From an uncultured Ectothiorhodospiraceae bacterium (GTDB taxonomy: Bacteria; Pseudomonadota; Gammaproteobacteria; Nevskiales; Oceanococcaceae), in the NCBI GenBank assembly GCA_937141935.1, contig CAKZQS010000004.1, positions 62,001-126,000 on the forward strand: 64,000 nt of DNA. Direction: 5' to 3'. A program made the position numbers and the translations under genes. Below, piece by piece: positions 2,182-13,229 of the stretch (within the stretch, counting starts at the first letter, position 1; every line of letters begins with the position of its first letter). Below the pieces are notes generated by a model. It ran no database searches. It had not been told where the DNA came from and saw only the letters and a list, made by a program, of their open reading frames with translations.

Positions 2182-2202
2182 GAGTAGACCGATACAAAAT
2201 AT
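2165..2202. promoter_or_regulatory. probable operator of the MerR-type regulator
   Basis: An inverted repeat with arms ATATTTGTAC (2165-2174) and GATACAAAATAT (2191-2202) overlaps the start of the MerR-type gene and the opposite-strand promoter. The core TTTGTACA recurs at 6404-6411 between the DUF2244 and FAD oxidoreductase genes. This fits autoregulation and control of the photolyase cluster; binding by this regulator is inferred. Confidence 0.5.
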
Positions 2203-3184
2203 GGACAACACGCAGGACGCCACAGATTCCAGTTATCGCATCGGAGCCGTCGAGCGCCTGACCGGCATCCCGGCGGTCACGATCCGCATGTGGGAGCGGC
2301 GCTACGGCGCCGTGGAGCCGGAGCGCAGCGCGGGGAACGGGCGCCTGTACAGCCGTGTGCAAGTGGCGCGTCTGACGATGCTCAAGCGCCTGGTCGATGC
2401 GGGGCATGCGATCTCGACGGTGGCGGCGCTCAGCGATGGCGAGCTGAGCCGGCGCATTGGCGACCTTCCCGATTTCCGGCCCGCGCTGGACGGGCCGCTG
2501 GCGGCCTGCGTGATTGGCTCCGGGCTGCAAGGGCGCTGGCCGGAAAGCCCGCAGGATGGCGAGGCCTTTTTGCTGGCCGACTACCCCGACATCGCCACCG
2601 CCCTGGCCGCGACGGGCGAAAGCGTGGATGCGCTGGTCGTGGACCTGCTGCTCATCGGGCCGCGCAGCATCGGCGAGCTGACCCGCCTGCGGGCGCATTT
2701 TTCGGCGACGGTGGTCATCGCGATCTATCACTTCGCCCCCAGCGAACAACTCGCGGCGCTGCATCGCGCGGGTTTTCACACGGTCAGCGCGCCGCTGCGG
2801 GTGGCCGAGTTGCAGCAGATGCTGCCAGCGTTGCTGGGCGCGACGCCGCAGGCCGAGTCCGGCGAGGATAGCCTGGTGGAGTGGCTGGGCGAGCCACCGC
2901 CGGCGCGTCGCTTCACCGCCGCCGAGCTGGCCGAGACCGTGGCGCTGGCGCGCACCGTCCAGTGCGAATGCCCCGAGCACCTGAGCCAGCTGATCACCAA
3001 GCTGGCGGCCTTCGAGGCCTATTCGCAGGATTGCGAATCGCGCACGCCCGCCGACGCCGTGGTGCATACGGTGCTGCACCAGGCCAGCGCCCAGGCACGG
3101 CGGCTGATGGAGGACGCGCTGCAGTACCTGATTACCCACGAGCTGGCCGACGCTGCCGCGGCAGAGCGTGCCAACAACGGCTGA
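2201..3184 (+). CDS. MerR-family transcriptional regulator, photolyase-cluster type
   Basis: A 327-residue DNA-binding regulator. Residues about 11-80 form a MerR winged helix-turn-helix (RIGAVERLTGIPAVTIRMWERRYG), as in the light-responsive LitR/CarH group. The C-terminal 200 residues have an alternating strand/helix pattern like a cobalamin-binding fold, but I see neither the DxHxxG motif nor the conserved His pairs that ligate cobalamin. If it senses light or redox state it must do so differently. No Shine-Dalgarno sequence precedes the ATG and an operator-like repeat runs up to it, so a leaderless message is possible. It converges with the photolyase operon, and its likely targets are that operon, its own promoter and the opposite-strand small RNA. 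Confidence 0.85.
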   Translation: MDNTQDATDSSYRIGAVERLTGIPAVTIRMWERRYGAVEPERSAGNGRLYSRVQVARLTMLKRLVDAGHAISTVAALSDGELSRRIGDLPDFRPALDGPLAACVIGSGLQGRWPESPQDGEAFLLADYPDIATALAATGESVDALVVDLLLIGPRSIGELTRLRAHFSATVVIAIYHFAPSEQLAALHRAGFHTVSAPLRVAELQQMLPALLGATPQAESGEDSLVEWLGEPPPARRFTAAELAETVALARTVQCECPEHLSQLITKLAAFEAYSQDCESRTPADAVVHTVLHQASAQARRLMEDALQYLITHELADAAAAERANNG

Positions 3185-3286
3185 TGACCGGCGGTCGCCG
3201 GGCCCTGCGGCACGGCGCGCGGCGGCCGCCCCGCGCCGGGGTGTGGTGGCCTTCCTGAAGACGCCGCGCCCTTAGTCGCCCGGCCC

Positions 3287-4861
3287 TCAGTCGCCGGGCT
3301 CGGCCTCTCCGCGCAACCGCGCGCGCACCGCCTTGGCCGCCTCGCGGATGCGCCGCCGCTCGGCATCATCCAGCCGCTCCAGGTTCTTGAGCTGCATGCG
3401 CAGCCGCGGGTGGTTGGCAAAGCGCTGGTGGTGGTGCGACAGAAAATCCCAGTACAGCACGGTGTAGGGGCAGGCCTCGTCGCCATGCCGCTGCTTGGGG
3501 TCGTAGGGGCACTGCGCGCAGGCGTTGCTCATGCGCTGGATGTAGGCGCCGCTGGCGATGTAGGGCTTGCTGGCCAGCACCCCGTTGTCGGCGTACTGGC
3601 TCATGCCCAGCGTGTTGGGCAGCTCGACCCATTCCACCGCATCGACGTAGATCGCGTGGTACCACTCGTGCACCTGGCGCGGCTCGACGCGCAGCAGCAG
3701 CGCGAACAGCCCGGTCACCATCAGCCGCTGGATGTGGTGGGCATAGCCCTGCTCCAGCGTCTGCGCCAGCGCGTCGTGCAGGCAGGCCATGTCGGTGTCG
3801 CCGGTCCAGTAGAACGCCGGCAGCGGCTCCTCGTGGCCGAGCGCGTTTTGCTCGCGCCAGTCCGGCATGCGCTGCCAGTACAGGCCGCGCACGAACTCGC
3901 GCCAGCCCAGCACCTGGCGCACAAAGCCCTCGACCGCGGCCAGCGGCGCCGCCCCGTCGGCGTAGGCCGCCAGCGCCTTGTCGACCACCTCGCGCGGGCG
4001 CAGCAGGTGCAGGTTCAGCGCCGCGGCGATGCGGCTGTGGTACAGCCAGGGCTCGCCCAGCCAGATCGCGTCCTGGTACTGGCCAAACAGCGGCAGCCGC
4101 TCGGCGATGAAGTCGCGCAGCGCGGCCAGCGCCTCGCGCCGGGTCACCGGCCAGTCGAAGTCGGCGCACTGCCCCGGGTGCTCGGCGTATTCGCGCTCCA
4201 CCAACGCGATGACCTCCTGGGTGATGGTGTCCGGGCGAAAGCGGCGCGGCTGCGGCAGCTCCTGCGGGCCGTCGCGGCCGAAGCTGTCGCGGTTGTCGGC
4301 GTCGTAGTTCCACTGCCCGCCCTCGGGCTCGCCCTCCGCGTCGATCAGGATCTGCTCGCGCCGGCGCAGCGCGCGGTACCAATACTCCAGCCGCAGCTGC
4401 TTGCGGCCCCGGGCCCAGTCGGCGAATTCGGCCGGGTCGGCATAAAAATGCGGGTCCTCGCGCCAGCGCAGCGGGATGTCGGTCTGCTCGACCCGGGCGC
4501 GTAGCGCGGCATCCAGGTCGTAATCCCCGGGCCGCGTCAGCACGACGGTTTGTGGCGCCAGGCGGTGGAGATCCGCCGCCAGCCAGTCAGCCAGCGCGGC
4601 GTGTTCGCGGGCGTCTTGCGTCTCGCGGTAGTGCACGCGGTGGCCGCGCTCGCGGGCGGCATCGCGGAAGTGCCGCATGGCCGCCAGGAAATAGACCAGG
4701 CGCGCCTTGTGCGACCAGGCGCGGGTCGCCTCGCCGCGGCATTCGCACATCCACAGCGCGTCCTGCCCGGCGTCGTAGTCATCGGGCAGCACGCTGTCCA
4801 GGTCGAGCTGGTCGCCGAGCACGATAATCAGCTGTCGCAGGGGCTCCCCTGGCTTAGCCAC
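3287..4861 (-). CDS. Fe-S cluster cryptochrome/(6-4) photolyase (PhrB/FeS-BCP type)
   Basis: A 524-residue flavoprotein of the bacterial cryptochrome/(6-4) photolyase class, which repairs UV photoproducts using blue light. The N-terminal Rossmann domain begins [13 protein letters not shown]. The four cysteines that bind the [4Fe-4S] cluster in Agrobacterium PhrB have counterparts here: MACLHD, then CAQC, then EACPY. Conserved late motifs ([25 protein letters not shown]) match the family. The GTG at 4859-4861 overlaps the stop codon of the DUF2256 gene and begins just before the homology. The open frame extends upstream only as Ala/Arg-rich shadow. It is last in a four-gene operon with DUF2244, SDR and DUF2256. 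Confidence 0.93.
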
Positions 4862-5039
4862 AGGCCATCTCTCTGCCGCTGCCGCCGCGGCCCGTCCCGC
4901 CGCCGCCCGTCTTGCCCCCCTGGCAGCGACGGGAGCAATGGCGCACCGCTTCCCAGTCACGTGCCCATTTGCGCCGCCAGGCGAAGGGCCGGCCGCAGCG
5001 TGCGCAGATCTTTTGCGGCAGGTGGGGTTTGCGGTGCAT
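4854..5039 (-). CDS. DUF2256 small zinc-ribbon-like protein
   Basis: A 61-residue protein with the DUF2256 signature: [19 protein letters not shown], then HCSRRC. The CxxC and CxxxC pairs probably bind a metal. Function is unknown. The family is repeatedly found next to photolyase/cryptochrome genes, as here, where its last codons overlap the photolyase start. The ATG at 5037-5039 is 14 bases after the SDR stop. The C-terminal tail is Gly/Arg-rich and low in complexity. Confidence 0.88.
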
Positions 5040-5053
5040 GGCGGGGGCCCGCG

Positions 5054-5803
5054 CTACCAGGGGATGGGCTTGCCGGCCCAGTCCAGGTAGGCGATGCCGG
5101 GTTCGGCCGCCTCGCGCGCTTGCATGACCGCGAGCAGGTGCGCCGCCGATTGCGCGGGGGTTTGCAGGCTGTCGTCCGGCACCGAGTCGCGAAAGGGCGC
5201 CGCCAGCGCCGTGTCGACGGTGCCCGGGTGCAGCAGCGTGACCTGGCAATGCTTGTGGCCGCGTGCCAGCTCGCGCGACAGCGTGACAAAGCCCTGATTC
5301 AGCGCCGCCTTGGCGCAGCGGTAGCTGTACCAGCCGCCCAGGCGGTTGTCGCCGATGCTGCCCACGCGCGCCGACAGCACGGCGATGTGGCTGGCCTCGC
5401 GGCGCGGCAGCAGCGGCAGCAGCGCCTGCACAACCAGCAGCGGGCCCAGCGCGTCGACCGTCATCAGCTCGTGGAAGGCGGCGGCGTCGAGTTCGCGCAG
5501 GCCACGCTCGGGGCGCTGCGCGGCCGTCTGCAGTATGCCGCTGGCAATCAGCAGCCGCGTCAGCGTGGCGTCCGCCGCCGCGAGCCGGGCTTTGACGGCG
5601 GCGGCGAAATCGGCGTACTGCCGCGTGTCGCGCAGGTCCAGGGCGAGGGCGTGCTCGGCGCCTTCGCTGTTTGCCGTCACCGCGCTCTGGGCCCTACGGC
5701 TGCGAAGCAACAGCGTCTTCGGCTCCTGCTCGGCCAGCGCGTCGGCCAGCGCGGCGCCCACGCCGCCATAACCGCCCACGATCAGCGTGGCCTGGCGGCT
5801 CAT
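5054..5803 (-). CDS. SDR-family NAD(P)-dependent oxidoreductase, CsgA-like
   Basis: A 249-residue short-chain dehydrogenase. The cofactor motif is at the N-terminus ([12 protein letters not shown], a GxxGxG variant) and the catalytic Tyr/Lys pair is in [10 protein letters not shown] near residue 163, preceded by the Ser strand (VLSARVGS). The HPGTVDT segment after the active site fits the family. Its ATG overlaps the DUF2244 stop (ATGA), so it is the second gene of the photolyase operon. Related SDRs accompany light-induced photolyase clusters in other Proteobacteria. The substrate is not known. Confidence 0.87.
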
Positions 5804-6363
5804 GCCGGCGCTCGGGGCCGCGCGGCCTCTTGCTGCGCGGCGCGCAGCCATTGCTGCAAGCGCGCGGCGAAGGCACGACGCTCCTCGACGCCCAGGATGC
5901 GGCCGACCTCGATGTCCTCGCCGGCATAGAGCAGGTGCACCGCGCCCGGGTCCAGCGGCTTTTGCGGCGCCTGGTAGTGCACGCGGGCCCAGGCCACCGG
6001 GCAGCGCAGGCTGCGCTCGGGCCGGCCGTGGCCGGCCTCGAAGTGCAGCTCGTCGGCCTCCACGCGCAGCACCTCGCGGTAGCTGTTGTCGCGCATGGCC
6101 ACGTACAGCCCGGCGCCCAGGCAGGCCATCTCGAGCCCGGCGAAGGGCAGCACCATCCAAAAGCCCAGCAGGGCGAGGCCGCCGGCGATGCCAAAGGACA
6201 CCGCACACATGCCGCCGAAGAGCCACAGGGCGTGGCGCGGCGCCAGCGAGGCGTTCGGGCGCACGACAATAGGCCCGGCGATGGCGCCGGGCGCGCCGTG
6301 GCCAGGCGGCTGCCGGGGCGTATCGGCGGAGCCCGGTTGGGGCTGCGGGGCGGAGTCGGTCAT
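5800..6363 (-). CDS. DUF2244 inner-membrane protein
   Basis: A 187-residue protein with a disordered Pro/Gly-rich N-terminal 30 residues, then the DUF2244 pattern. Two adjacent membrane helices (about residues 46-90, ALWLFGGMCAVSFGIAGG and WMVLPFAGLEMACLGAGLY) are followed by a basic beta-rich cytoplasmic domain (YREVLRVEADELHFEAG). It is the first gene of the operon, whose promoter lies in the 75-base gap to the divergent FAD oxidoreductase. Its function is unknown. Confidence 0.83.
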   Translation of the reverse strand: MTDSAPQPQPGSADTPRQPPGHGAPGAIAGPIVVRPNASLAPRHALWLFGGMCAVSFGIAGGLALLGFWMVLPFAGLEMACLGAGLYVAMRDNSYREVLRVEADELHFEAGHGRPERSLRCPVAWARVHYQAPQKPLDPGAVHLLYAGEDIEVGRILGVEERRAFAARLQQWLRAAQQEAARPRAPA

Positions 6364-6394
6364 GCCTGCATCCTGCAAGGGCCGGGGCAGGCAG

Positions 6395-6413
6395 TGTATA
6401 AAGTTTGTACACA
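6395..6413. promoter_or_regulatory. divergent promoter/operator with TTTGTACA core
   Basis: The gap between the divergent DUF2244 and FAD oxidoreductase genes contains TGTATAAAG followed by TTTGTACACA. TATAAA (6397-6402) can serve as a plus-strand -10 and TATACA as a minus-strand -10. The TTTGTACA core (6404-6411) also occurs at the MerR-type gene (2168-2175), suggesting one regulator for both sites. Confidence 0.5.
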
Positions 6414-6438
6414 TATGGTCCACAGCCCTACCGCGACG

Positions 6439-7458
6439 ATGAGCCCGACCCTGTCCGCCGATACCTTGATTCTGGGCGCCGGCATCGCCGGCCTGCGTGC
6501 CGCACAGCAGCTGCAGGCGGCGGGGGAATCGGTGCTGCTCCTGGATAAGGCGCGCCACCCGGGCGGGCGTTGTGCCACGCGGCGCCTGACCGCCGACCCG
6601 GACAGCCCCAGCTTCGACATCGGTGCGCAATACCTGACCGCGCGTGCGCCCGCCTTTGCCCGCGCGGTGCGCGGCTGGGTGGCGCAGGGGGTCTTGCAAG
6701 GCTGGTCGCCACGGCTGGCGCGGCAGAGCGGCCCCGAGAGTTGGGAGCCCAGCAGCGATGCCACGCCACGCTGGCTGGCGCCCGGGGGCTTTAACCAGTG
6801 GCCACGGGCCTGGGCGGCGCAGTTGCAACGCGAGGGCCTGCGCCTGCATTGCAGCCACCGGGTCCAGGCGTTGGAGCGATTGGCGCGGGGTTGGCGGGTG
6901 CATGGCAGCGGCGCCGCCTACAGCGCCCGCCGGGTGTTGCTGGCGATGCCGCCGGCCCAGGCGGCGGCGCTGCTGATTCCGGTGGCGCCGCAGCTCTGCC
7001 CCAGCCGGCGCCTGGCGCCCTGCCTGACGGCCGTTTACGCGGCGCCGGCCGGGGCGGCCGACTTCGACGCGCTCTTCGGCGATGGCGCGCCGCTGGCCTG
7101 GGCGGCGCGCAGCGGGGCGCGCCCCGGGGCCCGCAACGGCGGGGCGTCGGATTACTGGACGCTGCACGCCGGCGTGGCCCAGAGCCAGCGCCTGGCTGAG
7201 CGCGACCCGCAGGAGGTGGCGGCTGTGCTGGGCGACGCTTTCGCGGCGCTGATCGGGCTGGCGCCGGCGGCGCTGGAGTGCGTGCATGCACGCCACTGGC
7301 GCTACGCGCGGCTGCCGGAAGGTCTGGGTCAGGAGCCGCAGGCGGTCTTCGACGCCGACGCCGGGCTGGGCCTGTGTGGAGACTGGCTGGGTCGCGGCCG
7401 TATTGAGGATGCCTGGCTTTCCGGCGACGCCGCGGCGCAGGCGGTGTTGACCGCCTGA
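6439..7458 (+). CDS. NAD(P)/FAD-dependent oxidoreductase, renalase/amine-oxidase-like
   Basis: A 339-residue flavoprotein with an N-terminal dinucleotide-binding motif (LILGAGIAGLRAAQQL) and the following GGRCATRR segment typical of the renalase-like family. The C-terminal end (GLCGDWLGRGRIEDAWLSG) is the second conserved FAD-contact region. An in-frame ATG at 6415 would add eight residues; the 6439 start is preferred because homology begins at the Rossmann strand. It is transcribed away from the photolyase operon through a shared operator region. Such genes are frequent companions of photolyase clusters. The substrate is unknown. Confidence 0.87.
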   Translation: MSPTLSADTLILGAGIAGLRAAQQLQAAGESVLLLDKARHPGGRCATRRLTADPDSPSFDIGAQYLTARAPAFARAVRGWVAQGVLQGWSPRLARQSGPESWEPSSDATPRWLAPGGFNQWPRAWAAQLQREGLRLHCSHRVQALERLARGWRVHGSGAAYSARRVLLAMPPAQAAALLIPVAPQLCPSRRLAPCLTAVYAAPAGAADFDALFGDGAPLAWAARSGARPGARNGGASDYWTLHAGVAQSQRLAERDPQEVAAVLGDAFAALIGLAPAALECVHARHWRYARLPEGLGQEPQAVFDADAGLGLCGDWLGRGRIEDAWLSGDAAAQAVLTA

Positions 7459-7534: not shown

Positions 7535-8767
7535 CTACATCTGCGGCAGTGCGAGCACCAGAATCAAATTGCCGTGGCTGTCGCTGGAGGCCAGCAGCGT
7601 GCCGGAGAGACGCTCGCCCACAAAGCCGCGCAGCGCGCGCAGGCGTTGCTCGCGGCGCCGACCTTCCAGCTCGTCGACGTTGCCGGGGGGGTGCTCGCGC
7701 TGCTGTTCGAAGCGCAGCCGCACGCCATCCTCGGCGCGTTCGCCGCGCAGCAGCACGCGGCCGCGACCGGCCTGACCCTGAAACTCTTGCAGCAGGCTGA
7801 CGGCGGTGACGCTGAGGCTGCCGGCGTTGGTCATCACGTCAAAGCCCTCGGGCAGCTCGACGGCGAAATCCAGCCCGCCGAGTTCACCGGTGTCCTGCAG
7901 CGCGGCATGCAGGTTCTCGAAATATTCGGCCAGCGCGATATGTCGCAGCGGGTCATGGGCCAGGTCGCCGGCCAGGTCGCGGTAGCGCGTGAGCACCCGG
8001 CCGAAGCCGTCCAGCGCCTGGCGCAACTGCCGCGCCGGCGCCGGCTCCTCGGGCAGGTCGGCCCAGAAGCTGCGCGCGAGCTGGGTGGAGGCCTCCTTGG
8101 CCTTGCGCGCCGGCTGGCGCGCGGCCCGCGTCAGCCCCAGCAGCAGTTGCTTGTCCAGCGCGGCAATGCTGGCCGGGCCGTGCTCCTCACCCTGCAGACC
8201 CCCGCCGCGCAGCGATTCCTCCAGCTCGCGGAAGGCCCGCACGGCGGCGCGCTCGGCATCCTCGGCGCGCTGGCGGCTGGCCATCTCGTTGCGCAGCCGC
8301 GCATTGGCCCGCTCCAGCTCGGTTTCGCGCTCCTGCCGGCGGCTGATCTCGGCCTCCAGCTCCTCGGCGGTGCGCAGCGCCAGCAACTGCGGCGTCATGC
8401 GGATCAACGCGGCCGCCGTCAGCAGCGAGACCACCGCGGTGACCGCCTTCAGCAGCGCCTGCAGGCCATAGACCGGCTGCCAGATCGTGACCATGCCGAA
8501 GATATGGGTGATGCCGCAGCAGAGGATGAAGGCGGCGAACATCACGCCGATCCACCAGTAGCGCTGGACCATCTCGCTTTGGCCCTCGGCTTCGCCGCGG
8601 GTACTGCGCCGCGACAGGTAGTACAGGATCGAGATGGGGATCGAGAAATAGGCGATCGCAATCAGCGCATCGGCCACGACATGCGTCCACAGCAGGCCAG
8701 GCAACCAGCGCAAGCAGAAGCCATGGGGCATGAAGGTGCTGCCCAGCAGCGTGCCGAAGCTGTCCAT
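7535..8767 (-). CDS. ethylene-receptor-like membrane sensor with a degenerate kinase body
   Basis: A 410-residue protein. Residues 28-110 have three hydrophobic helices closely matching the ethylene-binding domain of plant ETR1 and cyanobacterial SynEtr1. All seven residues important in ETR1 (D25, Y32, I35, P36, I62, C65, H69) have counterparts here (D33, Y40, I43, P44, I81, C84, H88), with identical spacing within each helix. In ETR1 Cys65 and His69 help hold copper. A coiled coil (about 125-175) follows. The rest is at best a degenerate histidine kinase: I see no H-box His followed by Glu/Asp and no N-box or G-box. An SD-like GGAGGG precedes the ATG. It ends a five-gene signalling operon and may signal to the neighbouring receiver. 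Confidence 0.8.
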   Translation of the reverse strand: MDSFGTLLGSTFMPHGFCLRWLPGLLWTHVVADALIAIAYFSIPISILYYLSRRSTRGEAEGQSEMVQRYWWIGVMFAAFILCCGITHIFGMVTIWQPVYGLQALLKAVTAVVSLLTAAALIRMTPQLLALRTAEELEAEISRRQERETELERANARLRNEMASRQRAEDAERAAVRAFRELEESLRGGGLQGEEHGPASIAALDKQLLLGLTRAARQPARKAKEASTQLARSFWADLPEEPAPARQLRQALDGFGRVLTRYRDLAGDLAHDPLRHIALAEYFENLHAALQDTGELGGLDFAVELPEGFDVMTNAGSLSVTAVSLLQEFQGQAGRGRVLLRGERAEDGVRLRFEQQREHPPGNVDELEGRRREQRLRALRGFVGERLSGTLLASSDSHGNLILVLALPQM

Positions 8768-8772
8768 CGCGT

Positions 8773-9213
8773 CTACCCTCCGCGGCCGTCCTGGCCGGCT
8801 TGCCCGGGGTGGGCATCCATGTCGCCGAGCAGCTCTTCCAGAAAGGCCTGGAAGGCGCTTCGGTCCAGGGGCTTGGTCAAGAATCCGGCAACGCTGCCAT
8901 GGGCCTCGGCGCGGTTGCGGTCGCGCTCATCCTGCGAGGAGGTCACCATCACCACGATGCCCTTTTCCGGCTTGCTGCCGGCCTCCAACTCGCTCAGAAA
9001 GGTGAAGCCGTCCATCACCGGCATATTGATGTCGAGCAGAATCACGCAGCGCTGGCCCGCCAGTGGCCCATTCAACAGCTCCAGCGCCTGGGCGCCATCG
9101 GCGGCCTCGCGAATGTGATCTTCGGGAACCCCGATCTTGCGCAGCACGCGCGCATTCAGAAAGCGGTCGGCCTCGTTGTCGTCGACCACCAGGTAAGCGG
9201 TGTCCGTGTTCAT
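8773..9213 (-). CDS. single-domain response regulator (receiver only)
   Basis: A 146-residue CheY-like receiver. Acidic residues DDNEAD (11-16), the phospho-acceptor Asp61 in LLDINMPVMDG, the Thr/Ser switch in VMVTSS and Lys in FLTKPLD are all present. There is no output domain, so it probably relays phosphate or binds a partner protein. Its ATG overlaps the stop of the CHASE-type kinase, and it is followed 5 bases later by the ethylene-receptor-like gene. The pairing suggests a local relay between kinase, receiver and membrane sensor. Confidence 0.92.
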   Translation of the reverse strand: MNTDTAYLVVDDNEADRFLNARVLRKIGVPEDHIREAADGAQALELLNGPLAGQRCVILLDINMPVMDGFTFLSELEAGSKPEKGIVVMVTSSQDERDRNRAEAHGSVAGFLTKPLDRSAFQAFLEELLGDMDAHPGQAGQDGRGG

Positions 9214-10979
9214 GCCGCAAGCTCCTCCGGTTGTTTTGTCGGCCATTCCACCTCAAAGGCGGTGCCGTTGCTATCCGAGTACACACGGGCGTTGCCGCCC
9301 ATGTTCTCGATGTTCTTGCGCACGATATAGGTGCCCAGCCCGGCGCCGCCCATCGAGCTGCTGTGCGCGCGGAAGAACAGCTCAAAGACGTGCGGCAGGG
9401 CGTTGTTGGGGATGCCAATGCCGTTGTCGCGCACGCGCAGCGTGGTCCAGCCGGCGGCCTGTTCGACGGTGACTTCTATCAAGGGACGCGACCGCTCCTG
9501 GCTGCGGTATTTGACGGCGTTCGAGAGCAGGTTGAGCAAGATTTGTTCCAGGCGCACCGGCTTGGCGGCGACGCTGACATCGTCGGCAAAGGGCAGCTGC
9601 AGCTCGACCCGCGCCTCGGGGTGCATGCGCAGCACCTGCAGGAACAGCCGCTTGATCAGCGGCTTGAGCGGAATGCGGGCGTATTCCTCGACGCGCAGGT
9701 CCGACTCGCACAGATCGAAGATGCTGGAGATCACCCGCACCTGCTGATCGACCATCGTCTCGATGCGATCCAGGCCGCCGCCCAGATCCTTGTACTCGGC
9801 GTCGCGCAAGTCCTCCTTGGCCATCTGCACCAGGCCCTGCAAGGTGCGCAGTGGCGCCACCAGGTCGTGGGAGACGCGATAGTTGAACTGGATCAGTTCC
9901 TCATTGCGCTTCTTCAGCTCAATTTCCGAGCGGCGCAGGCTGGCGGTCATCTGCCGGGCCAGCTCGTGGGCGCGGGCATTGGCATGCACCAGCACCAGGA
10001 ACACGCCGAGCAGCAGCAAGTCGACGGTGAGCCCGCCGATCAGAATCAGCGTGGGCAGGTTCGAGGCGAATTCCGCACGAAAGCTTTGGCTGCTGCGCAG
10101 CTCGAAGATCCACTCGCGGCCGTACAGCGGCAGGCTCAGCTCGCTGCTGAACATCGGATAGGGGTCGTAGTCGGCGTGCGTCTCGGCGCTTTGCTGCAGC
10201 AGGAAGGTGCCGCCATCGCGCAGCGACAGGGTCAGGTGCTCGGAGGCGAGATCCAAGCTGGCCAGCAGGTCCTCGGCGACGAAGGCGGCGGCCACCAGCG
10301 CCGGGCCGCGGGCCAGGGCCTCGCCCTGTGGGGCCAGCGGTGCGTAGAGCACGAAGCCGGGGGAGTGGCGCATGTCCTGCACCAGCGTGATGGGGCCGGT
10401 CATTTGCACCTGGCCCGACTCCAACGCGCGCTGCGCGGCCAGCCGGCGCTGCTCCTCGAAGGCCAGGTCCAGGCCGGCGACCTCCTGATTCGGCGTCAGC
10501 GGCGCGACGTAACGCACCGGCAGGTGTTCGTCGGCGGCGACGGGCGGCCAGACGGCAAAGCCCAGCTCGCCATACTCCTGCGCCACGCGCGCGTTGTAGG
10601 CGGCCAGTTCGGCGCGCGGCACACGATCCACCAGGGCCAGGCCGCTGAGCCCGCCGAGGCGCTGCGGCAGCTCCAGGCTGCTGACCAGCGTCTGCCAGTC
10701 GCGCAAGCTGACGCCGCCCGCGGCCTGTTCGGCGCGGGCGAAGCCGACCCCGGCGCGCAGCGTGTTGTCATACAGGCGCAGGCGCTCGGCAAAGCGCTCG
10801 ACCGTCTCGGCGGCCGCCTGCTCAAAGCGCAGGCGGTGGCGTTCGGCAATCAGGTTGCTGGACACAAACCAGGCCAGCACCGTCAGCCCCAGCGACGCGC
10901 CGAGCACCAGCCAGTGCACCAGGTGCAGCCGGGTGTGGAACTCCGCGCTGTCCGGCGCCTGACGGATCCCGGGTTTCAT
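9210..10979 (-). CDS. CHASE-type sensor histidine kinase
   Basis: A 589-residue inner-membrane kinase. One helix at about 20-42 and another at about 308-335 enclose a periplasmic domain whose RYVAPLTPNQEVAGLDLAF and GFVLYAPL stretches match CHASE sensors, the class that includes plant cytokinin receptors. The dimerisation/phosphoacceptor helix carries VSHDLVAPLRTL, and the ATPase domain has NLLSNAVKY, DNGIGIP and GAGLGTYIV. The second ATG of the frame (10977-10979) overlaps the upstream kinase stop and is chosen as the start. The ligand is not predictable from sequence. It is the third gene of the operon. Confidence 0.92.
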   Translation of the reverse strand: MKPGIRQAPDSAEFHTRLHLVHWLVLGASLGLTVLAWFVSSNLIAERHRLRFEQAAAETVERFAERLRLYDNTLRAGVGFARAEQAAGGVSLRDWQTLVSSLELPQRLGGLSGLALVDRVPRAELAAYNARVAQEYGELGFAVWPPVAADEHLPVRYVAPLTPNQEVAGLDLAFEEQRRLAAQRALESGQVQMTGPITLVQDMRHSPGFVLYAPLAPQGEALARGPALVAAAFVAEDLLASLDLASEHLTLSLRDGGTFLLQQSAETHADYDPYPMFSSELSLPLYGREWIFELRSSQSFRAEFASNLPTLILIGGLTVDLLLLGVFLVLVHANARAHELARQMTASLRRSEIELKKRNEELIQFNYRVSHDLVAPLRTLQGLVQMAKEDLRDAEYKDLGGGLDRIETMVDQQVRVISSIFDLCESDLRVEEYARIPLKPLIKRLFLQVLRMHPEARVELQLPFADDVSVAAKPVRLEQILLNLLSNAVKYRSQERSRPLIEVTVEQAAGWTTLRVRDNGIGIPNNALPHVFELFFRAHSSSMGGAGLGTYIVRKNIENMGGNARVYSDSNGTAFEVEWPTKQPEELAA

Positions 10980-12007
10980 CCCGGCGCCTCGGGCAGCCGG
11001 CACAGGATGCGGGTGCCGCCGCCCTCGGCGGCCTCGGCCCAGATGCGGCCGCCGTGGCGCTCGGCAACGCGCCGCGCCGTGGCCAGGCCCAGGCCCGCGC
11101 CGGGCAGGCCGGCATCGCTGTGCACGCGGCGGAAGGGCTCAAAGGCGGCCTCGCGCAGGTCCTCGGGCAGCCCGCGGCCGTGGTCACGCATCTCCAGCTG
11201 CAGCGTGTCGCCCTCGATCGTGGCGCGCAGCTCCACCCGCGGGGGCTCGCCCTCCGCCGGGTACTTCAAGGCGTTATCCAGCAACGCGGCCAGCAGCATC
11301 TGCAGCCCGTCGGGGGCGACCGGCCAGCTCGGCAGCGGCGCGCTCTCCACCTGGGCCTGGCTGGCTTCGATGGCCTTCTTTTGCTGCGCCCGCACCTGCT
11401 GCCAGATCGGCTCGAGTTCGGTCGCGCTGTAATCGGTATCAAAGCGGCCGGCCCGCGAATACAGCAGCAGGCCCTGGATCAGGCCCTGCATCTGCTGGGC
11501 GCCGCGGTCGATGAAGGCCAGGTACTGGCTGGCGTCCTCGCTCAAATCGTCGCCGCAATCGGCCTTGAGCAGCTGCGCGAAGCTCATCAGCGTGCGCAGC
11601 GGCGCCTGCAGGTCGTGCGAGACGGTGTAGGCGAACTGCTCGAGTTCCTGCTGGCTGGCCTCCAGCGCGGCGCGCAGCGCGGCCGCATCATCGGCGCCGG
11701 CGTGGCCGCCGGCATCGGCATTGCCGCCGGCGGGGGCGGTGGCCGGTCGCAGCAGCAGGCTGAGCTGCGCATCGCCGGTGGCGAGCAATACGGCCTCGTA
11801 GCCGCTGTCGGCCGGCAGCGGCAGCCGCCGCTGGGCCGGGGCTGCGCCCAGCTCGCTGCGCGCCAGCTCGACCGCGATCGCCAGCGCGGGCGGCAGCTCG
11901 GTGGCCTGCGCGTCCAGGCCGAGGTGGCGCAGCGCCGCGGGCTCGGCGGCCCGCACGCGACCCTGGGCGTCCAGCAGGATCAAGCCCTGCTCCTGGCCAC
12001 TCGCCAT
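10976..12007 (-). CDS. cytoplasmic PAS-like sensor histidine kinase
   Basis: A 343-residue soluble kinase. The N-terminal 120 residues look PAS-like (GLILLDAQGRVRAAEPAALRHL). They are followed by a phosphoacceptor helix with FAYTVSHDLQAPLRTL and an ATPase domain with LLDNALKYP, DHGRGLP and GAGLGLATA. No membrane segment is seen. It overlaps the CHASE kinase gene by four bases and follows the receiver-PAS gene after 10 bases, so the operon is continuous. A HDLQxPLRT phosphoacceptor is typical of phytochrome-like and cyanobacterial kinases. Confidence 0.88.
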   Translation of the reverse strand: MASGQEQGLILLDAQGRVRAAEPAALRHLGLDAQATELPPALAIAVELARSELGAAPAQRRLPLPADSGYEAVLLATGDAQLSLLLRPATAPAGGNADAGGHAGADDAAALRAALEASQQELEQFAYTVSHDLQAPLRTLMSFAQLLKADCGDDLSEDASQYLAFIDRGAQQMQGLIQGLLLYSRAGRFDTDYSATELEPIWQQVRAQQKKAIEASQAQVESAPLPSWPVAPDGLQMLLAALLDNALKYPAEGEPPRVELRATIEGDTLQLEMRDHGRGLPEDLREAAFEPFRRVHSDAGLPGAGLGLATARRVAERHGGRIWAEAAEGGGTRILCRLPEAPG

Positions 12008-12017
12008 GTCCGCGTCC

Positions 12018-13229
12018 TTAGCCGGTGGCGCCGCTGCGGCGCAGCGCGCGCAATTCGTCGCGCAGGGCGCCGTTTTCCTCTTGCAGCAGATGTGCGCGCT
12101 CTTCGAGCATCGTGCGTTCGCGGCGCCAGGAGGCCCCGCTGCCCGCATCCTCGTAGACCGGGCGGGCGATGATGCAGGCGCCGATCAGGCCGCCCAGTTC
12201 GTCGCGCATCGGCGCCAGCGTCATACGCACCGGCACGCGCCGCCCCGAGGCATGTTTGAACTGGGCGTCGACATCGCGCAGCACGCGGCCGCGGCGGATG
12301 GCGCCGAGAATGGTCTGCGCGGCACCGGCGTCTTCCGGCGGGAACAGGTCCACGAAGTTGGTGCCGGCAATGGATTCGACCTCGCGGCCGACAAATTCGG
12401 TGGTCGAGCGGCTGCAGCTGTGAATCTGGCCGTCGAGGTCCTGGCTGATCACCGCATCCCGGGTCGCGCTCATGATGACGCCCAGCACCTGCATGGCCTG
12501 GTGCGCCCGGCGCGACTCCTCGGCGTCGGCAATCGCCCAGGTGCGGCCGCCATCGTCGCCGCGCTCACCGTGCGGTTGAATCTCCATGAAGCGCGTCTTG
12601 CCGCCGGGCAGCAGCAGGTGCACCTTGACCGGGCCGGAGAGCTTGGAGGCATGGCGCAGGATCGAGCTCAGCTCCTCCTGGCGCCGGGCCGGGGCCAGCT
12701 CCTGGAAGGGCTGGCCTATGACCTGCTCGGGCGTCCACTTCAGCAGCGCCACGCACTGATCGTCCCAGCTTGTGATCTGGCATTCGCTGTCGAGGCGGAA
12801 GCGGCCTTCGCTGCGGATGGAGGGCGTGTCCTCGCGCACCGGCGCGGCCTTGGCCGAAATCGCCTCGCGCAGCACCGGCAGCACGGCCTCGGCCTGATCC
12901 ATGGGGCGCTTGACCAGGTAGGCATGGGCGCCGGCACGCACCGCGCTGGCGGCGGTGCGCTCGTCATCGACGCCGCTCAGGATCACGACCGGCAGGTCGG
13001 GGTTGACCTGGTGCAGGCGGCGCAGGTTGTTCAGGCCGCGGCCGTCGGGCAGGCCCAGGTCCAGCAATACGCAATCGATCCCGTCCTGGCTGGCCATCTC
13101 GATGCCGGCGCCCAGCGTATCGGCGCGGCGCACGCTCACCTCGATGCCCGCAGCATCGGCTTCGCGGCCGAGTTGCTTTTCGATGAGGATCGCGTCTTCG
13201 AGGCGGTCCTCGATCAACAGAACGTTCAT
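12018..13229 (-). CDS. response regulator with receiver and two PAS domains
   Basis: A 403-residue protein, the first gene of the signalling operon. Residues 1-125 are a receiver with Asp57 in VLLDLGLPDG and a conserved Lys (YLVKRPMD). Two PAS-like modules follow (about 140-245 and 255-370, the latter with RDAVISQDLDGQIHSCS and FVGREVESIAGTNFVDLFPPE). The C-terminus is a short coiled coil. There is no DNA-binding or enzymatic output domain, so it probably acts as a phosphorelay hub or scaffold for the two kinases encoded next. No obvious promoter was identified between it and the preceding terminator. Confidence 0.88.
   Translation of the reverse strand: MNVLLIEDRLEDAILIEKQLGREADAAGIEVSVRRADTLGAGIEMASQDGIDCVLLDLGLPDGRGLNNLRRLHQVNPDLPVVILSGVDDERTAASAVRAGAHAYLVKRPMDQAEAVLPVLREAISAKAAPVREDTPSIRSEGRFRLDSECQITSWDDQCVALLKWTPEQVIGQPFQELAPARRQEELSSILRHASKLSGPVKVHLLLPGGKTRFMEIQPHGERGDDGGRTWAIADAEESRRAHQAMQVLGVIMSATRDAVISQDLDGQIHSCSRSTTEFVGREVESIAGTNFVDLFPPEDAGAAQTILGAIRRGRVLRDVDAQFKHASGRRVPVRMTLAPMRDELGGLIGACIIARPVYEDAGSGASWRRERTMLEERAHLLQEENGALRDELRALRRSGATG

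Follow-up and report, generated by a model that had tools for sequence, protein, structure and literature searches.

Gene content of the locus

The window, by which we mean the whole 64,000-nucleotide stretch of DNA analyzed, carries a run of five co-directional genes on its reverse strand. These encode, in order, a REC-PAS-PAS protein, a soluble kinase, a CHASE kinase, a receiver, and a receptor. The first gene (12018 to 13229, reverse strand), assigned by Pfam, has an orthologue at L035, the corresponding locus of a second species of the same genus, and its product is 30% identical to the REC-PAS-PAS-kinase of L036, the locus with the nearest receptor. The soluble histidine kinase (10976 to 12007, reverse strand) has Pfam HisKA and HATPase domains, and its kinase part is 36 to 43% identical to the kinase domains of many intact EBD-kinases. 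Next come the CHASE-domain histidine kinase (9210 to 10979, reverse strand; Pfam CHASE 118 bits, HATPase 88 bits) and a single-domain receiver, or response regulator (8773 to 9213, reverse strand; Pfam Response_reg), whose likely start is M12 of the listed open reading frame. Both kinases have the H, N, G1, and G2 catalytic motifs, and both receivers have the phospho-Asp, as read from the translations.

With gene starts picked by inspection of the open reading frame list, the genes are separated by gaps of 10 and 5 nt and joined by two 4-nt ATGA overlaps that flank the CHASE kinase gene; the 5-nt gap lies between the receiver and the receptor gene downstream of it. All five genes recur in L035 in identical order, and its receptor shows the same kinase loss. 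Identities to L035 (tblastn) are 55% for the REC-PAS-PAS protein, 36% for the soluble kinase, 53% for the CHASE kinase, 63% for the receiver, and 41% for the receptor.

Beside the operon (2201 to 7458) lie genes for a MerR regulator and a photolyase-related protein (DPRP), both identified by Pfam, and for short-chain dehydrogenase-like and FAD/NAD-binding proteins recognized by eye. These are likely to form a light-damage cluster.

The membrane domain

The receptor gene (7535 to 8767, reverse strand; 410 amino acids) starts at an ATG at 8767 with a GGAGGG ribosome-binding site upstream, and its frame is common to its full-length relative in L035, to which it is 44% identical. The preliminary description had proposed an ethylene-receptor-like membrane domain here, and a family search bears this out: residues 25 to 131 match ETR1_N (PF25487) at 105 bits against a Pfam cut-off of 27 (E = 2.6e-30). 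The L035 counterpart scores 112.5 bits, and the receptor is the sole ETR1_N protein in the 3.57-Mb genome. Together with helix prediction, the match delimits a predicted three-helix, putatively ethylene/copper-binding membrane domain at residues 23 to 129 (8381 to 8701, reverse strand). The predicted helices (23 to 56, 71 to 95, and 98 to 129) come from a low-confidence model, with pLDDT mostly 53 to 69, and agree with the ETR1_N match. A PDB sequence search with the receptor gave no match.

Alignment with Arabidopsis ETR1 pairs D25 with D33, Y32 with Y40, I35 with I43, P36 with P44, I62 with I81, C65 with C84, and H69 with H88. All seven residues named in the preliminary description (DYIPICH) are therefore in place with identical in-helix spacing, as it had claimed. 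Helices 1 and 2 are joined by a loop with an 11-residue insertion that is absent from ETR1 and only partly present in L035. The ETR1 sequence used was checked by its numbering, which gives back all seven published residues. An eighth residue, absent from the preliminary description, is K107, which the same alignment pairs with ETR1 K91. The codons of D33 (8669 to 8671), of the putative copper ligands C84 (8516 to 8518) and H88 (8504 to 8506), and of K107 (8447 to 8449) all lie on the reverse strand; the first three were placed by alignment, and K107, the proposed salt-bridge partner of D25, by alignment and covariation.

We aligned 51 collected homologous membrane domains and counted the residues in each column. 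The Cys/His pair, whose loss in close relatives had been named as an argument against the assignment, is retained: L035 has both, and among the homologues Cys65 is kept in 50 of 51 and His69 in 49 of 51, with Tyr replacing His69 in two. The Asp25 column is more variable (D in 34, N in 8, other residues in 9). With the distant L085 excluded, Lys or Arg at position 91 is present or absent in a ratio of 33:0 among homologues with D25 and of 3:14 among those without it, and outside the window's own clade the pattern persists at 7:0 against 3:14; these counts and the associated Fisher values take homologues as independent, ignoring their relatedness. The receptor belongs to the group of homologues that keep the full signature.

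Family assignment and alignment thus identify the membrane domain as a true ethylene-receptor domain. Retention of the complete set of residues required for ethylene binding (seven-residue criterion as in PMC11819568) makes it most likely that C84 and H88 hold Cu(I) and that the domain binds ethylene. ETR1 D25 is described as forming a salt bridge to a conserved Lys, and its replacement by Asn lowers ethylene affinity about 100-fold (PMC13012798). Retention of both D33 and K107 suggests high ethylene affinity, and favors ethylene as the probable ligand. A copper-binding domain whose natural signal is instead copper, redox state, carbon monoxide, or another small alkene seems unlikely to us. 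Sequence cannot tell these signals apart, few bacterial members have been assayed, and the neighborhood includes the light-repair-like cluster; against this reading, every residue that ETR1 needs is kept, including the D25 position, and AzoEtr1 of Azospirillum brasilense, with the same seven residues, binds ethylene (PMC11819568).

D25 and/or K91 have been lost mostly in homologues fused to GGDEF, which may therefore bind ethylene weakly or bind another ligand. The covariation of these two positions might serve as a usable predictor of tight ethylene binders among bacterial homologues. Two further receptor-kinases, in L046 (7351 to 8595) and L059 (8275 to 9519), naturally carry Tyr instead of the copper ligand His69 and have Ser where the N-terminal Cys would be, and are candidates for ligand loss or change. 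Outside the seven ETR1 residues, an N-terminal [P/A]H[G/A]xC motif (H15 and C18 in the receptor; window 8381 to 8767) occurs in 46 of the 51 bacterial members and could take part in copper loading.

Linker and C-terminal region

A predicted helical or coiled-coil signaling linker (residues 132 to 190; 8198 to 8374, reverse strand; predicted helix 134 to 188) follows the membrane domain. Over 59 aligned positions it is 53% identical to L035, and the same identity is seen over 43 positions with the intact-kinase relative L036. The remainder of the protein (residues 191 to 410 and the stop codon; 7535 to 8197, reverse strand) is a degenerate HisKA/HATPase region, assigned by hhalign. Pfam finds no HisKA or HATPase match in the C-termini of the receptor or of its L035 counterpart. 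A profile of the two C-termini nevertheless matches intact kinases of the HE(I/V)NTP class (hhalign probability 98.5%, E = 2.5e-14), and hmmsearch gives 37.8 bits for L035 and 18.3 bits for the window, where shuffled sequences score at most 2.7 and 1.2. In genomes of the class, kinase matches over positions 138 to 363 have E values down to 1e-13. These matches identify the C-terminus as a descendant of an HE(I/V)NTP-class histidine kinase. Ancestry in the HDLxAPL class, which most relatives carry on this domain, was rejected (hhalign 0.9%, shuffle-level scores).

The preliminary description had seen a degenerate kinase without phosphoacceptor and ATP-binding boxes, and the alignment now traces each loss in both species. 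The phospho-acceptor His is replaced by Gly193 in the receptor and by Asp in L035; the N box has Glu and Thr, respectively, instead of its second Asn; and the G1/F/G2 ATP-binding stretch is deleted in both, with the last helix and strands retained. A histidine kinase that lacks the phospho-His, N, and G1/F/G2 boxes is not expected to autophosphorylate or bind ATP in the usual way. Judged by its missing boxes, the former kinase is catalytically dead. We considered two substitute phospho-acceptors and rejected both: the conserved His276 sits in the hinge that precedes the CA region, at a position where an intact kinase has Glu, and His196, near the old phospho-site, is absent from L035. Matches of the receptor to NCBIfam MreC (14.6 bits against a cut-off of 343) and to Pfam DUF6498 (below cut-off) were attributed to chance or coiled coil. 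Structure prediction (alignment of the window with L032 to L034) gave a mean pLDDT of 46, and AlphaFold pLDDT is below 50 from residue 185.

Is the dead region under constraint? Between the receptor and L035 it is 28% identical at the amino acid level, against 8% (maximum 12%) in shuffled columns and 66% in the membrane domain; its DHp-like half is 27% identical. Fourfold-degenerate sites differ at 61 to 73% across the parts of the gene and are thus near-saturated. L035 keeps the whole reading frame, and a full-length profile match runs from 1 to 419. One reading is that the membrane domain works and the kinase part is decaying and useless, with signaling gone or confined to the membrane domain. 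In its favor are the low C-terminal identity, the differing letters at the phospho-acceptor place, and a separately degenerating kinase in the distant receptor L057. The dead region evolves fast relative to the membrane domain, and so may be a loosely constrained leftover. Simple decay is nonetheless quite improbable in our judgment, because the open frame and five-gene order persist in a second species whose synonymous divergence is close to saturation, and because aligned identity is far above that of shuffles along a full-length match.

L057 itself (8202 to 9389, genome G091) keeps its phospho-His (HELNTP) and has lost its N and G1 boxes. This is a separate, partial kinase degeneration, possibly leaving a phosphotransfer protein.

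Relatives and origin of the architecture

The receptor profile matches 55 of the 85 genomes of the order, nearly always over the membrane domain. There the membrane domain is usually joined either to an HDLxAPL kinase, with a receiver and a REC-GGDEF-EAL protein encoded alongside, or directly to GGDEF. The full-length form with the dead kinase turned up only in the window's genus, in two species. A scan of genome contigs yielded only three distant receptors, from Obscuribacterales.

In a receptor-domain tree, the window and L035 stand beside L036 and L037 (support 89/85). The L036 locus brings together a REC-PAS-PAS-kinase (HEINTP), a REC-HD-GYP protein, a receptor-kinase (HDLRAPL), and a soluble kinase (HDLQAPL). 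In the window the REC-PAS-PAS protein lacks a kinase, the soluble kinase is of HDLQAPL type, and the receptor carries a dead kinase of HE(I/V)NTP type; the whole resembles a reshuffled L036-like set. This arrangement could reflect domain exchange, in which an ancestral REC-PAS-PAS-kinase gave its HE(I/V)NTP kinase to the receptor and the HDLxAPL kinase originally attached to the receptor split off as the soluble kinase gene. The presence of all three kinases in the one L036 locus and the pairing in the receptor-domain tree argue for such an exchange; a kinase tree fails to place the dead kinase, because its terminal branches are too long (about 10 changes per column), and the genome has another HEINTP kinase elsewhere (L102). 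We regard exchange as a tentative reading, possible but with the odds leaning somewhat against it. It concerns origin rather than function and is compatible with the explanation that we prefer below.

Proposed signaling through operon partners

If the receptor is catalytically dead, its output must run via partner kinases or a receiver. The suggestion in the preliminary description that it acts through the neighboring receiver or kinases fits an operon predicted to encode two motif-intact kinases and two receivers. We propose, with a probability of roughly 55%, that the protein is a noncatalytic ethylene receptor homologue, whose dead kinase serves as a docking or allosteric module acting on the operon kinases and/or receiver. 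Ethylene would bind at Cu(I) held by C84 and H88, and the conserved helical linker would pass ligand binding to the dead kinase region. This region would contact the intact operon kinases and/or the single-domain receiver and alter their phosphorylation, a mode of action modeled on Caulobacter DivL with DivK and CckA.

A narrower version would have the dead kinase serve as a DivK-like adaptor for the neighboring receiver only, sensing or sequestering its phosphorylated form under tuning by ethylene, and making no kinase contact. The adjacency of the two genes and the 63% conservation of the receiver in L035 speak for it, as does DivL, which has neither kinase nor phosphatase activity and binds DivK~P via the docking interface (PMC4211667). 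Against it, the face of the HisKA helices on which a receiver would dock is poorly conserved here (27% identity in the DHp-like half), and we hold a receiver-only role to be improbable.

The sensor of the window's CHASE kinase matches 6k62 (E = 2.4e-10), an entry labeled only "Histidine kinase" by the search tool, which we take to be the structure of PcrK. PcrK recognizes a plant cytokinin (PMC7072313). In the window's genus and in G770, G030, and G717, genes with the receptor domain have a CHASE-domain gene no more than about 5 kb away (L176, 3792 to 9483; L072, 8599 to 14289; L175, 4257 to 11291; window, 7535 to 10979). The G770 run encodes an EBD-PAS-PAS-kinase, a receiver, a REC-GGDEF protein, and a CHASE-kinase-REC protein. 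The observed count exceeds the 0.2 genomes roughly expected by chance among those compared, a post hoc estimate that treats placement as random and takes no account of how signaling genes cluster. An extension of our preferred reading, in which ethylene is read by the dead kinase docked on the receiver and kinases, one of them the CHASE kinase, would give two plant-hormone-type inputs and one output; we consider it a doubtful, low-probability elaboration.

Comparison with known systems

The receptor resembles AzoEtr1, a tested receptor with all seven residues (PMC11819568), and SynEtr1 (slr1212) of Synechocystis in its predicted three-helix ethylene-binding domain and adjoining response regulator gene. 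In both of those proteins the receptor has a histidine kinase domain, and SynEtr1 signaling reportedly depends on kinase activity (PMC11819568), whereas here the kinase is dead and the operon supplies two others. Bacterial ethylene-binding-domain proteins with varied outputs have been described (PMC7700396). In the literature searched, which included few subscription journals, we found no paper on a bacterial ethylene receptor with a dead kinase. The sensor is thus of a known kind; its catalytically dead version is new, and like the DivL pseudokinase.

The nearest well-studied case is DivL, whose kinase core has been given over to sensing a receiver (PMC4211667). The DivL/DivK/CckA system of Caulobacter shares with this operon a noncatalytic kinase core, a single-domain receiver, and a separate true kinase, a likeness of architecture. 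Unlike the receptor here, DivL has PAS sensors, acts in cell-cycle regulation, and lacks an ethylene domain. The likeness to PcrK, a Xanthomonas CHASE kinase, and to plant cytokinin receptors lies in the CHASE sensor of the operon's second kinase, not in the receptor.

On the ethylene side, the closest parallel is with the plant subfamily-2 ethylene receptors (ETR2, EIN4, and ERS2), in which an ethylene-binding domain is joined to a kinase without canonical histidine-kinase residues and output runs via partners. The plant receptors use a GAF domain and CTR1, neither of which is present here; kinase loss in the window is independent and affects a kinase of another class. Plants have ethylene receptors with dead kinases, whose signaling is still debated. 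A bacterial receptor that combines an independent kinase loss with the full binding signature and a compact operon would make noncatalytic receptor-to-partner signaling testable in a simple cell.
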